A DNA stretch of 43,542 nucleotides from Planctomycetota bacterium. GTDB lineage: Bacteria; Planctomycetota; UBA11346. Below are positions 7,871-12,529 of the stretch, piece after piece; within the stretch, counting starts at the first letter, position 1; each line of letters starts with the position of its first letter. The position numbers and the translations under genes are program-made. The stretch lies in NCBI GenBank assembly GCA_003136555.1, contig PLEW01000244.1:34114-77655 (forward strand), in the 5' to 3' direction. The notes beneath the pieces were generated by a model. The model was not told where the DNA came from, searched no databases, and saw nothing but the letters and a program-made list of their open reading frames with translations.

Positions 7871-9043
7871 GTGGACTACCTCGTCATCGCCCGCAAATAC
7901 CGCCCTCAGACCTTCACCGAGGTGACCGGCCAGGAGGTCGTGGCGCGCACCTTGACCAATGCGATCAAGTCGCAGCGCGTCGCCCATGCCTACCTGTTCA
8001 CCGGGCCTCGCGGGGTGGGCAAGACCAGCATGGCGCGCATCCTCGCCAAGGCGCTGTGCTGCGAAACCGGGCCGACCACCGAGCCGTGCGGCGTCTGCCA
8101 GCATTGCCGCATGATCACCGACAGCGGGCATCCGGACGTCGCCGAGATCGACGCCGCGCGCTACAATGGCGTGGATGCGATCCGCGAGCTCTCGGACAAT
8201 GCCAGCTTCTCCCCGACCCTGGCGCGCTTCCGCATCTACATCCTCGACGAAGTGCACATGCTCTCGACCTCGGCGTGGAATGCCCTGCTCAAGCTGCTCG
8301 AGGAGCCCCCGGCCCACGTTCGCTTCATCTTCGCCACCACCGAGGTCGAGAAGGTGCTGCCGACGGTGCTGTCGCGCTGCCAGCGCTTCGACTTCCGCTC
8401 GATCGACCTCGATGCCATCGTCAAGCGCCTGCGCGAGATCTGCGTCAAAGAGCAGGTCCAGCTGACCGATGCGGTGCTCTACCGCATCGCCCGCGCCGCG
8501 GGAGGCGGCATGCGCGACGCGCAGACCCTGCTCGACCAGCTGATCGCGGTATGCGACGGCGAGGTCATCGAGGAGGACCTCAACCTGCTCCTCGGGGCAG
8601 CCCGCGGCGGCGATCTCGATCTGGTGGTCAATGACCTGCTGTCGGGCAATGCCAGCGCCGCTATCGAGACGCTCGATCGCATCGTCGCTGGCGGGGTGGC
8701 GCCGACGACCTTCCTCGAACAGCTCATCGATCACGCCCGCACCGTGCTGCTGGTGCAGGCCTGCGGGAGGGAATCGCCGGCCGTCCGCCGCCTCGGCACC
8801 TGCACGCCCGCCCTCGAGGCCCAGGCCAAGCTGGCCACCCCCGAGAAGACCATGCGCACCTGCCAGATCCTCATCGGCAGCCAATTGGCGCTGCGCCAGG
8901 GAGCCGACCCGCGCTTGCAGCTCGAGCTCTCCTTCGTCCGCATCGCCGGACTCGGGCAGCTGCTGGATGCCGACACCCTGCTGCGCCGCATCGAGCGCCT
9001 GGAAAGCGCGCCGGCAGGAGCGTCTGCTCCGCACCCCCGGTAG
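7871..9043 (+). CDS. dnaX: DNA polymerase III subunit gamma (0-frame product of dnaX)
   Basis: Clamp-loader ATPase, 390 residues in the 0 frame. Seen in order: the N-terminal signature YLVIARKYRPQTFTEVTGQ (3-21), Walker A GPRGVGKTS (45-53), zinc cysteines around C64, C73, C76 and C79, Walker B LDEVHMLS, the clamp-loader block WNALLKLLEEPP, and sensor/arginine-finger LPTVLSRCQRFDF. Domain III runs to about IERLE, then a short Ala/Pro tail ends at TAG 9041-9043. Length is close to the gamma form of other bacteria, which is truncated before the tau-specific part. The start is GTG 7871, since the conserved N-terminus begins there; upstream codons to 7625 overlap rsmG on the other strand and are not homologous. 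Coding clearly resumes in the -1 frame just past this stop (separate entry). Confidence 0.93.
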   Translation: MDYLVIARKYRPQTFTEVTGQEVVARTLTNAIKSQRVAHAYLFTGPRGVGKTSMARILAKALCCETGPTTEPCGVCQHCRMITDSGHPDVAEIDAARYNGVDAIRELSDNASFSPTLARFRIYILDEVHMLSTSAWNALLKLLEEPPAHVRFIFATTEVEKVLPTVLSRCQRFDFRSIDLDAIVKRLREICVKEQVQLTDAVLYRIARAAGGGMRDAQTLLDQLIAVCDGEVIEEDLNLLLGAARGGDLDLVVNDLLSGNASAAIETLDRIVAGGVAPTTFLEQLIDHARTVLLVQACGRESPAVRRLGTCTPALEAQAKLATPEKTMRTCQILIGSQLALRQGADPRLQLELSFVRIAGLGQLLDADTLLRRIERLESAPAGASAPHPR

Positions 9044-9076
9044 GGCCGGGACCGTCCCCGTCACGGTCACCGGCCC
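9034..9076 (+). promoter_or_regulatory. Candidate programmed -1 frameshift site in dnaX
   Basis: A run of five C (9034-9038) sits in 0-frame codons CAC CCC CGG, so a tRNA on CCC can slip back one base and still read CCC. Five bases after that codon a stem-loop begins: 9043-9049 pairs with 9070-9076 (7 bp), 9050-9055 pairs with 9063-9068 (6 bp), with one bulged A at 9069 and a 7-nt loop CCCCGTC. The 0-frame stop TAG (9041-9043) lies between the run and the stem. A smaller alternative hairpin (9036-9040 with 9046-9050) encloses the stop. Run, 5-nt spacer and strong stem-loop match the layout of known -1 signals, but the heptamer is not a canonical X-XXY-YYZ. A missing C in the assembly would give the same reading pattern. 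Confidence 0.55.
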
Positions 9077-9630
9077 GCACCGAACTCCCCTCCGAGCATC
9101 ATCCTTCCGCGGCGCGCCAGGGAGAGGGCGCCCCTGCCTGGCCGCTCACCCAGCAGGCCGACGCTGCGCCAGCCGCTCCCAGCCCGGCCGCGCCAGCCTC
9201 GTCGCCACGTCCAGCCGAGCTGGCCCCCCAGGCCCTGCTGAGCCTGCTGCAGAGCCGTTGGGGTGAACTGGCCCGCAACGCGATGCGCGATGGCCAGGTG
9301 AGCCTCGCCGCAGCACTCACCGACAGCGCGCCGGTGGCGCTCGCGGGCGACCTGCTGACCGTCGAGCTGCCGGCCCCCTTCTGCGCCCAGCTGACCATCC
9401 GTCCCGACATGACCCAGCAGTTCGAGGCCGTGCTGCAGGCGGTCGCCGGACGACGGCTGCGGGTGGTCGGCCGTCCGCGCAAGGGCCAGGCGGGCGATGA
9501 GCGCACTGACCGCTACCGCCAGGCGCAGGATCATCCCCTCGTGCAGCTGCTGATGAAGCGCTTCGAGGCGGACATCGTGGCGCGCGAGATCATCCCCACC
9601 GAAGAATGGCTCAGGCGCATGCAGTCCTAA
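9037..9630 (+). CDS. dnaX: DnaX tau-specific C-terminal extension (-1 frame)
   Basis: This is not a separate gene as far as I can see, but the continuation of dnaX one frame back. The frame is open from before the gamma stop to TAA 9628-9630. After slippage at 9037 it adds about 197 residues: first a Pro/Ala/Ser-rich linker of about 60-65 residues, then a folded domain starting near ALLSLLQSRWGELARN, with LLTVELPAPFCAQLTI and FEAVLQAVAGRRLRVVGRPR, ending DHPLVQLLMKRFEADIV. The 'W..', 'vp..f...l' and final 'dpxVqxxxxxFxaxiv' pattern is typical of DnaX C-termini in many phyla. Codon third positions stay GC-rich, as in real genes nearby. The full tau-like protein would be about 586 residues. An internal ATG at 9283 could start a 115-residue piece, but this would cut the domain. 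Confidence 0.75.
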   Translation, partial: PVGPGPSPSRSPARTELPSEHHPSAARQGEGAPAWPLTQQADAAPAAPSPAAPASSPRPAELAPQALLSLLQSRWGELARNAMRDGQVSLAAALTDSAPVALAGDLLTVELPAPFCAQLTIRPDMTQQFEAVLQAVAGRRLRVVGRPRKGQAGDERTDRYRQAQDHPLVQLLMKRFEADIVAREIIPTEEWLRRMQS

Positions 9631-9763: not shown

Positions 9764-12529
9764 ATGAAGCCAGAGCCTATCAGCGTGGATGCTCCCATCC
9801 GTCGCGATGAGACCTCCGAACTCATGGGCCAGGGCGGAACCTACCTCCGCCAGCCAACCCAGATCGGACCCTACAAGATCATCCGCGTCATCGGACGCGG
9901 GGGAATGGGGACGGTGTACCGGGCACAGGTCGTCGTTTCTTGCGAAGTGCCTATCGGGCAGGAAGTTGCGATAAAGCTTCTGCGCGAGACCGAGGAGAAG
10001 GAACGACTGCGTTTCGCACGCGAGGCCGGCTACCTCCAGGCGCTGCGGCATCCGGGGATTGTGCGCGTACTGGATGCTGGTGAATTCGAAGGCCAGCCCT
10101 ATCTGGTGATGCAGCTCGTCGAGGGCGGCCATGCCGACGACCTGCTGGTGCCGGGCAAGCCTTTGGACGAGCAGCGGGTGGCCGATCTGGCCATCCAGGC
10201 ACTCGAGGCGCTCCAGGTGGCCCACCTAGCCGGCATCCTGCATCGCGATATCAAGCCGGGCAACATCATGATCACCCCGTCGGGCCAGGTGAAGCTGGTC
10301 GATTTCGGCCTGGCCCAGTACATGGACGCCGAATCGCATCTGACCGCCACCGGGGCAGTGGTCGGCACCCCCGCCTACATGAGCCCGGAACAGGCTGCCG
10401 GACGGCGCAACGAGGTGGGCCGGCGCTCCGACGTCTACAGCATGGGCGCATGCCTCTATGAGCTGGTGACCGGCCAGCAGCCGTTCACTGCGGACAACTC
10501 GGTCGCCTTGCTGCGCCGCATCATCGAGGAGCCGCTGGTGCCGCCCTCGCAGCTGCGCAAGGACCTCCACCGCGATCTCGAGACCGTGATCCTCAAGGCG
10601 ATGGCGAAGGATTACCGCGACCGCTATGAGAGCGCCGAGGCGATGGCCGCCGACCTGCGCCGCTTCCGCCTGGGCGTGCGCATCCGTACCGGGCGTCCTG
10701 GCACCCTGCTGCCCTTCTTGCGCACCGCCTGGCACCACCGCAGCACCATTGCCGGCCTCGGGCTGCTGCTGTTCGTTTCGGCCTCCCTGGCGACCCTGAT
10801 GGTGGTCCAGGGCCTCAAACGGGCGAAGGCGCAGAACTCCAGCCCGAGCCCCGTCCTGACCACCACCGAGAAGCCTCCGGAGGACGATCCCTCGCCTTCC
10901 GATCCGTGGGTCGCGACCTTCAAACAGGCTGAAGCGCTCGATAACCCGAAGAGCGCCCTGAAGATCAAGCCCGCACCGACCTTCGGCAAGGACGCGGTCC
11001 GGACCGAGACCATCAAGCGGGTGAGCGGCTCGGTGCGGCTCTCGGTCAACATCGAGCTGCGCGACGTCAACTTCCTGGTCGAATTGATGATCAACGACCG
11101 CGACATCGGCCGCGGATACCGCCTACGGCTGATCGGCAGCAAGAACAACGACCGTCTCGAACTGCTGCGCGAGAAGCGGGTGGTCACCAGCCGCGACCTC
11201 GGTCAGCTGTCGCGCGGGCAGACCATGCGCATGACCATCGAGCGCAACGACAACACCATCATCGGCCTGATCGGCAAGCGCGAGCCGCTGCGCCTGCCCG
11301 ACCTGGTGCCCATCGAGGGCGAGAACGCCTCGGGCGTCTACATCGCCTATGTCCCCGGTGAGGTGCGCATCAGCGACATCCAGCTCGACCGCCAGCGCAG
11401 CACCCTGTTCATCAGCGCCCTGGAGCTGGCCGACAACGAGCGCCAGGAGAACAACTTCGGCCTGGCGAAGGAGAAGTACGAGGAGTTCCTCCATGATCAC
11501 CCCCAGTCGCCGCAGGTGCGTGACGCCCAGCTGCGCATCGGGCTGTGCCTCGAGGCGATGGACAATCCGCTGGCCTACGAGCAGGCGCTCAACACCTTCA
11601 TCGAGGTGGCCTCGGCCAATCGCGACGATCCGCGCTACGTCCTCACCGCCACCGTGCATGCCTGGAGCTGCGCCCTGCGCCTGGGGCGCTACGAGGAGGC
11701 AGAGGAGTTCTTCGATGCCGTGCGCCGCGACAACGACCTCAGCACCGTCCTGGCCACCGTCTCGGAGGCGATGATCCAGGACCTGGTCAAGGACTACCTC
11801 ACCAGGGCCAGCACCATCGCAGCCGCGGAACCTGAGCGGGCGGTAAAGCTGTACACCGATGGCGCGGAGATCGCCACCTACCTCAAGCAGACCGACGCGG
11901 CGGGCCTGGCGGAGACCGCCGCCGGCGACATCCTGATGTCCCTCAATCGCAGCAACGACGCGCTCGAGCGCTACCGCGCGGTCAGCAGCAACATGGAGCT
12001 GCCCGTGCCGTTGCGCATGAAGGCCCTGCTCAAGGTGGCGGAGGCGGAGCGCATGCGCGACCATCTGGAAGCCGCCGAGATCGCCTACGAGGTGATCCTG
12101 TCGCATCCGCAGCCGGTCGAGGACTACCAGTCCCAAGCGCGTCTCTGGCTCGGCGACATCTATGCGCAGAAGGGCGATACCGCCGGTGCGCTCGCCTGCT
12201 GGGGAAAATCGAAGGAGGACAAGAGCCTGGCCGGCATGATCATGCGCCACATGCTCAACGGCGAGGTGCCCATGCCCACCGGCGATGACCGTTTCCACGC
12301 CAATGATATCGAGTACTTCAATGCCCGCCTCGCCCTGCTGCGCGGCCATCCGGAGCAGTTCCTCGAACGTCTGCAGCACGTCGTCGACATGGGCCCGGCA
12401 AATGATTGGCCGTCACCCTTCGCCCAGCACCTCCTGCAAGTGCTCCAGAGCGGTCGCAGCGAGGCCGATGTCGAGGCCCACCCCTCTCCGGCAGCCGAAT
12501 CCAGCGAGATCGCCCAGCCGGTGCCCTAG
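9764..12529 (+). CDS. Membrane Ser/Thr protein kinase with C-terminal TPR region
   Basis: A 921-residue Hanks-type kinase. The kinase domain spans about 37-305: glycine loop GRGGMGTVY (44-52), catalytic Lys71 in VAIKLL, HRDIKPGN (160-167), DFG (180-182) and the activation segment ending GTPAYMSPEQ. All catalytic residues are present. One membrane helix follows (about 328-350, AGLGLLLFVSASLATLMVV). The outer part begins with a low-complexity stretch, then about 150 residues of beta-rich sequence (NIELRDVNFLVELMIND...) resembling a LamG/ConA-like sandwich. From about 545 helical repeats (QENNFGLAKEKYEEFLHDHP, then ARLWLGDIYAQKGDTAGALA) look like TPRs. It stands alone, so no target can be named. 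ATG 9764 has no strong Shine-Dalgarno but is the only start ahead of the kinase domain with a plausible context. Confidence 0.88.
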   Translation: MKPEPISVDAPIRRDETSELMGQGGTYLRQPTQIGPYKIIRVIGRGGMGTVYRAQVVVSCEVPIGQEVAIKLLRETEEKERLRFAREAGYLQALRHPGIVRVLDAGEFEGQPYLVMQLVEGGHADDLLVPGKPLDEQRVADLAIQALEALQVAHLAGILHRDIKPGNIMITPSGQVKLVDFGLAQYMDAESHLTATGAVVGTPAYMSPEQAAGRRNEVGRRSDVYSMGACLYELVTGQQPFTADNSVALLRRIIEEPLVPPSQLRKDLHRDLETVILKAMAKDYRDRYESAEAMAADLRRFRLGVRIRTGRPGTLLPFLRTAWHHRSTIAGLGLLLFVSASLATLMVVQGLKRAKAQNSSPSPVLTTTEKPPEDDPSPSDPWVATFKQAEALDNPKSALKIKPAPTFGKDAVRTETIKRVSGSVRLSVNIELRDVNFLVELMINDRDIGRGYRLRLIGSKNNDRLELLREKRVVTSRDLGQLSRGQTMRMTIERNDNTIIGLIGKREPLRLPDLVPIEGENASGVYIAYVPGEVRISDIQLDRQRSTLFISALELADNERQENNFGLAKEKYEEFLHDHPQSPQVRDAQLRIGLCLEAMDNPLAYEQALNTFIEVASANRDDPRYVLTATVHAWSCALRLGRYEEAEEFFDAVRRDNDLSTVLATVSEAMIQDLVKDYLTRASTIAAAEPERAVKLYTDGAEIATYLKQTDAAGLAETAAGDILMSLNRSNDALERYRAVSSNMELPVPLRMKALLKVAEAERMRDHLEAAEIAYEVILSHPQPVEDYQSQARLWLGDIYAQKGDTAGALACWGKSKEDKSLAGMIMRHMLNGEVPMPTGDDRFHANDIEYFNARLALLRGHPEQFLERLQHVVDMGPANDWPSPFAQHLLQVLQSGRSEADVEAHPSPAAESSEIAQPVP

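Follow-up and report, generated by a model that had tools for sequence, protein, structure and literature searches.

The dnaX gene in a class of Planctomycetota is very probably a programmed -1 ribosomal frameshift gene whose products, to judge from its sequence, come in the reverse order to those of E. coli: standard decoding is predicted to yield the short gamma-like subunit of the clamp loader, and the shift the long tau subunit. The locus lies in a 43,542-nucleotide stretch of DNA (the window; 68% G+C) from a draft genome of the class UBA11346 (253 contigs, 86% complete), and we compared it with the dnaX loci of relatives.

A split dnaX gene in the window

In the window, dnaX is on the plus strand and is divided between two overlapping reading frames (Table 1). 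The two frames, the stop codon, a run of five C residues (9034-9038) and a stem-loop had been located in a sequence-only reading, and all of these coordinates were verified on the sequence. The GTG start at 7871 was assigned via homologues, and the open frame extends further upstream. The 0-frame product matches the DnaX N-terminal model TIGR02397 with 414.6 bits (cut-off 250; E 3.5e-124), and PF13177, PF22608 and PF12169 also score above cut-off, so that the ATPase core, lid and domain III are all represented. The -1 frame stays open from 9034 to a TAA at 9628-9630 (198 aa). With a shift at the joint, the predicted tau product would be 586 aa long, against 390 aa for gamma. The E. coli gamma and tau subunits have 431 and 643 aa, respectively.

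Table 1 Features of the dnaX locus in the window
Feature	Position	Strand	Description
dnaX 0-frame ORF	7871..9043	+	AAA+ ATPase, lid, domain III; predicted gamma-like product, 390 aa
0-frame stop TAG	9041..9043	+	second codon past the slip codon
-1 frame ORF	9034..9630	+	Pro/Ala-rich linker and DnaX (tau) C-terminal domain
Putative slip site C_CCC	9034..9037	+	Pro codon CCC 9035-9037 with C before it; overlapping CCC 9034-9036
Putative stimulatory hairpin	9043..9076	+	13 bp, arms 9043-9055/9063-9076, bulged A9069, 7-nt loop; 5-nt spacer 9038-9042 after codon CCC 9035-9037

The split is a trait of the class

In the collection searched, this class of the phylum Planctomycetota is represented by 23 species in 12 genera, all of a single family within a single order. 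All 18 loci that are readable across the joint, from 10 of the genera, have dnaX split at the same place, with 62-75% amino acid identity in the shared part. In every case the 0 frame runs through the clamp-loader domains and stops at about 384-397 aa, and the -1 frame carries the tau C-terminal domain (18/18). The window alone had suggested a dnaX split by a -1 frameshift, with a reversed logic in which the 0 frame gives the short form and the shift the long one; the same break in 18/18 loci supports both points, and no class member with an unbroken dnaX and no C run or stem-loop was seen.

Five of the 23 species fall outside the count. Four showed no DnaX N-terminus match, and in the fifth (G020) the gene is cut by a contig end before the joint; for three of the four, the contig begins within the C-terminal part and the joint is unreadable. 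Contigs G011:C59, G012:C107 and G013:C544 (L063-L065) begin just inside the C-terminal part of dnaX, which may reflect a tendency of assemblies to break close to the joint.

In other (sister) families of the phylum, dnaX is unbroken in 18/18 genes read to the end. Since the class members are all split and the sister-family genes are unbroken, the split is a trait of this class. We found one dnaX per genome and no second dnaX in the class genomes searched, and a second gene elsewhere as the supplier of tau was rejected. Weaker matches in the dnaX search are probably delta-prime and RuvB-like ATPases, on the basis of size and identity. Among named genomes, a scan with the DnaX N-terminus turned up two distant relatives only. 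The window's own genome yielded no 16S gene; the two family members that have one (L053 and L054) carry the Planctomycetota signature, with an exact match to the PLA886 probe target and one mismatch to that of PLA46.

The gene 3' of dnaX encodes a Hanks-type Ser/Thr protein kinase, recognized by its motifs, in at least 11 of the 18 loci (the window, at 9764-12529, and L004, L005, L015, L016, L018, L020, L022, L023, L026 and L029). The two sister-family loci with translated downstream DNA (L036 and L045) have a YbaB/EbfC-like gene there instead.

A conserved hairpin downstream of the slip codon

A GC-rich hairpin is present in 18/18 loci, with minimum free energies (MFE) from -14.7 to -35.4 kcal/mol. 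It begins about 3-6 nt past the slip codon: 5-6 nt in most members, and about 3 nt, shorter than usual, in the four whose stop comes right after the slip codon. For positions 9030-9090 of the window, the MFE is -32.6 kcal/mol (z = -3.6) and none of 200 shuffled sequences was equally stable. The strong stem-loop first noticed at this joint is thus stable against shuffles and recurs throughout the 18 loci, together with the break and the slip codon, far more consistently than chance would allow. The z-score is strong in about half of the members and weak in six or seven GC-rich ones.

Compensatory changes were analyzed on subsets of like stem length. Two-sided changes that keep the stem paired occur at 8 of the 13 pairs of one set and at 6 of the 12 of the other, for example C-G/U-A and G-C/A-U exchanges in the outer stem and a G-C/A-U exchange in the window's own stem. 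RNAalifold over all 18 sequences returned five consensus pairs only, because the stem lengths differ. At the DNA level, the three genomes of the window's genus (g1) are 85% and 65% identical in the two 20-base bins that cover the slip site and the stem; identity falls to 30% in the bin immediately before and to 25% in the bin immediately after. The slip site and hairpin are an island of DNA conservation.

A covariance model of the frameshift hairpin (R1) re-finds the dnaX joints and gives a few weaker matches elsewhere. One of these, at G005:C25:37191-37248 (E 2e-4), is a second match located away from dnaX, and could be due to chance or mark another recoded gene.

The putative slip site is a proline codon preceded by C

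The motif C_CCN occurs at or adjoining the stop in all 18 loci, and the slip codon is CCC or CCU in 16 of them and CCG in two (L019 and L021). The search rule itself demanded a C before CCN, and the informative part of this result is that the nearest such codon is always at or adjoining the stop. The stop is the second codon after the slip codon in 13 of the 18 loci, including the window, the next codon in four (CCC_TGA, CCT_TAG, CCT_TAA and CCC_TAA) and the fifth in one. The C5 run to which the sequence-only reading had drawn attention is present in the window and is not conserved: the run is just C3 in 11/18 loci and ranges from C3 to C5, with T, A or G directly following. We therefore rejected a long C run as the conserved feature, which is C_CCN (mostly C_CCY) alone.

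The base two positions before the slip codon is a purine in all 18 loci, which makes a two-tRNA heptamer impossible except in L005 (A_AAC_CCC). The X_XXY_YYZ heptamer of the E. coli A_AAA_AAG type was accordingly rejected, as it fits that one locus among 18. An ancestral slippery heptamer in the sister dnaX genes was rejected as well, heptamers being present in 7/18 and scattered. The poly-A run of reversed dnaX genes is absent; the sites are C_CCY, twice C_CCG, with no A run. An upstream Shine-Dalgarno-like element is not conserved, with anti-Shine-Dalgarno pairing that beats shuffled sequences (fraction <=0.06) in 3/18 loci only.

In E. coli, tetramers combined with a stimulator rank A_AAG >> U_UUC > U_UUU > C_CCU = C_CCC > A_AAA, and C_CCA and C_CCG are barely shift-prone, much weaker than C_CCU and C_CCC (PMC4066793). 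The preference of the class for CCC and CCU fits these rules, under which C_CCU and C_CCC shift more readily than the other C tetramers (PMC4066793). A search of the window's incomplete genome gave no tRNA-Pro(GGG), the tRNA able to read CCC and CCU, which hinted that its lack might cause slippage; this idea was rejected because two more complete class members have the tRNA. In G014, whose slip codon is CCG, GGG and UGG are the sole Pro isoacceptors among the tRNAs found. Tight tRNA arrays were observed at G000:C78:6180-7219 (the window's genome, 11 in a row) and at G004:C10:156206-160360 (about 20), and many of the tRNAs in them have lower scores and duplicate isoacceptors.

The shift could follow another route than slippage of tRNA-Pro in the A site, namely doublet decoding of CCN by tRNA-Thr or slippage in the P site while the next codon or the stop occupies the A site, which we consider improbable. 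Doublet decoding of a Pro codon does produce a -1 shift in vitro in the MS2 synthetase gene (PMC5009743), tRNA-Thr(GGT) is present, and in four members the slip codon is followed at once by the stop. Against this, slip codon and stop are not adjacent in the other 14, where a sense codon intervenes, and a C, which is needed for re-pairing and not for doublet decoding, precedes CCN in 18/18, an argument weakened by the search rule that required this C.

Transcriptional slippage, in which RNA polymerase adds or drops bases in the C run as it does in Thermus dnaX, appears very unlikely. It is known for poly-A dnaX genes, and most earlier reversed dnaX genes were assigned to it (PMC3711429). The described sites, however, are A or T runs of about 8 or more (about 8-9 or more for the Thermus type), whereas the runs here are 3-5 C and are ended by T, A or G. 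Furthermore, slippage by the polymerase has no need of a conserved hairpin at the distance typical of -1 frameshifting.

The -1 frame encodes the tau tail

In nine within-genus pairs, third-position differences in the -1 frame exceed second-position differences in 9/9 and first-position differences in 8/9. By this pattern of substitution, the -1 frame is evolving as coding sequence. Its product in the window matches the tau region of PRK14950 (E 1.3e-9), and a profile of the -1 frame aligns with the C-terminus of the unbroken sister DnaX proteins (hhalign E 3.3e-12), placing the tau-specific C-terminal domain in the -1 frame. Matches to the Pfam families DUF3646/DnaX_C are below cut-off, and a PDB profile search with the C-terminal part gave no significant match. 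A tail motif around HPLVQxLxKRFxADIxxRE is kept in the -1 frame of all 18 members. The C-terminal region is reduced to 61-100 codons, with the middle domain lost, in L017, L022, L024, L026, L028 and L029, which still keep the tail motif and the frameshift.

An alternative is that dnaX here makes two separate proteins, with gamma terminating and the C-terminal part translated by re-initiation. A few members do have GTG or ATG near the joint (an ATGA overlap in L020; GTG at codon 5-6 in L015, L024 and L025). In most, the first start codon is 15-60 or more codons away, and the window offers no ATG, GTG or TTG in the -1 frame until 83 codons downstream, already within the domain. The joint itself is where the Pro/Ala linker of the -1 frame sets in, and no role is known for a tau tail that lacks the ATPase body. 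We hold re-initiation to be highly improbable.

The loss of the middle of the C-terminal region in six members might point to a decaying gene in which gamma alone is functional and the -1 frame is a relic. All 18 members, however, keep the tail motif in the -1 frame with coding-type substitutions, and none was seen among them that lacks the tail or has stops inside it; nor would a relic retain covariation in the hairpin, and decay is thus exceedingly unlikely. Least credible of all is an assembly or sequencing error, a base missing from the C run of a really continuous gene, which the single-base difference and the fragmented, 86% complete draft had made a legitimate doubt from the window alone, and which is ruled out for practical purposes: 18 genomes assembled independently of one another share the break, the stop, the slip site and the hairpin, and most of them have a C run of just three bases.

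A model for tau synthesis by -1 frameshifting

From the conserved elements and the coding in two frames, we infer the following course for programmed -1 frameshifting in the window. Standard decoding of ...CAC CCC CGG TAG would release the 390-aa gamma-like clamp-loader subunit, which is evident as an open frame. The 13-bp hairpin 5 nt downstream may hold a fraction of the ribosomes with codon CCC in the decoding or the peptidyl site. One tRNA-Pro could then slip one base back onto the overlapping CCC (CCY to CCC in the class), and reading would continue in the -1 frame as ...H-P-P-V-G-P... yielding a tau of 586 aa that includes the DnaX C-terminal domain. The tau:gamma ratio would be set by the slip codon, the stop and the hairpin.

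Because no second dnaX was found, the shift would be the only route of the cell to tau and should be efficient, perhaps at some tens of per cent. The shift in E. coli dnaX reaches about 50%. In the same species, C_CCY with a strong stimulator yields far less, from below 1% to a few per cent (PMC4066793). We think it rather probable that the whole class depends, for its sole tau, on a high-efficiency -1 shift at C_CCY that takes one tRNA-Pro and needs neither an A/U-rich heptamer nor a Shine-Dalgarno element.

Discussion

The reversed dnaX logic is not unprecedented. It was already published in 2013 (PMC3711429) and is restated in PMC5009743 (Atkins 2016). Antonov 2013 described 17 two-ORF reversed dnaX genes from 12 genera, including Chlorobium and Chloroherpeton; 12 of the 17 have runs of 7-10 A and are mostly assigned to transcriptional slippage (PMC3711429). 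As in those genes, the 0-frame stop of the class comes after gamma, the C-terminal ORF is in the -1 frame and tau needs a -1 shift. The class differs from the poly-A genes in having an A-free C_CCY site and a conserved hairpin in all readable members. Since a poly-A run is described for 12/17 of the Antonov genes only, it does not strictly define reversed dnaX.

Other recoded genes share parts of this design. As in E. coli dnaX, a -1 shift is predicted in the same part of the gene, a hairpin lies a few nucleotides downstream, and both tau and gamma would be made. In E. coli, the shift leads to the short gamma and uses the two-tRNA heptamer A_AAA_AAG with an upstream Shine-Dalgarno stimulator, whereas in the class the shift would lead to tau, at a one-tRNA tetramer without a conserved upstream element. 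The dnaX gene of Thermus thermophilus likewise gives two products by recoding, but it has an A9 run, encodes tau in one ORF and relies on slippage by RNA polymerase. The Z_ZZ.N shift of IS1/IS3 transposases also combines a one-tRNA slip with downstream RNA structure and produces a longer fusion; it belongs, however, to mobile elements, in which the common tetramers are A_AAG, U_UUU, U_UUC and A_AAA (PMC4066793). The prfB gene of RF2 has an in-frame stop near the shift site and needs the shift for the full protein, but there the shift is +1, driven by a Shine-Dalgarno element and autoregulated by RF2, whereas that proposed for the class dnaX is -1 with a hairpin.

In a literature search mostly outside subscription journals, we found no paper on reversed dnaX in Planctomycetota or with a proline-codon site. 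Set against the published cases, the class stands out for its A-free tetranucleotide site, for having no conserved Shine-Dalgarno element, and for the conservation of the signal throughout. In practical terms, gene callers will split or mis-annotate dnaX across the class. The 18 natural variants of a compact signal offer a test of how Pro codons, stops and hairpins set efficiency. If our reading is true, a core replication protein here cannot be made without a bacterial frameshift signal of a kind for which we found no description. The two-product dnaX would then have arisen once more on a slip site of different chemistry, built on strong C-G pairs and one tRNA, and a core replication subunit could rely on frameshifting at a motif with weak activity in E. 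coli.
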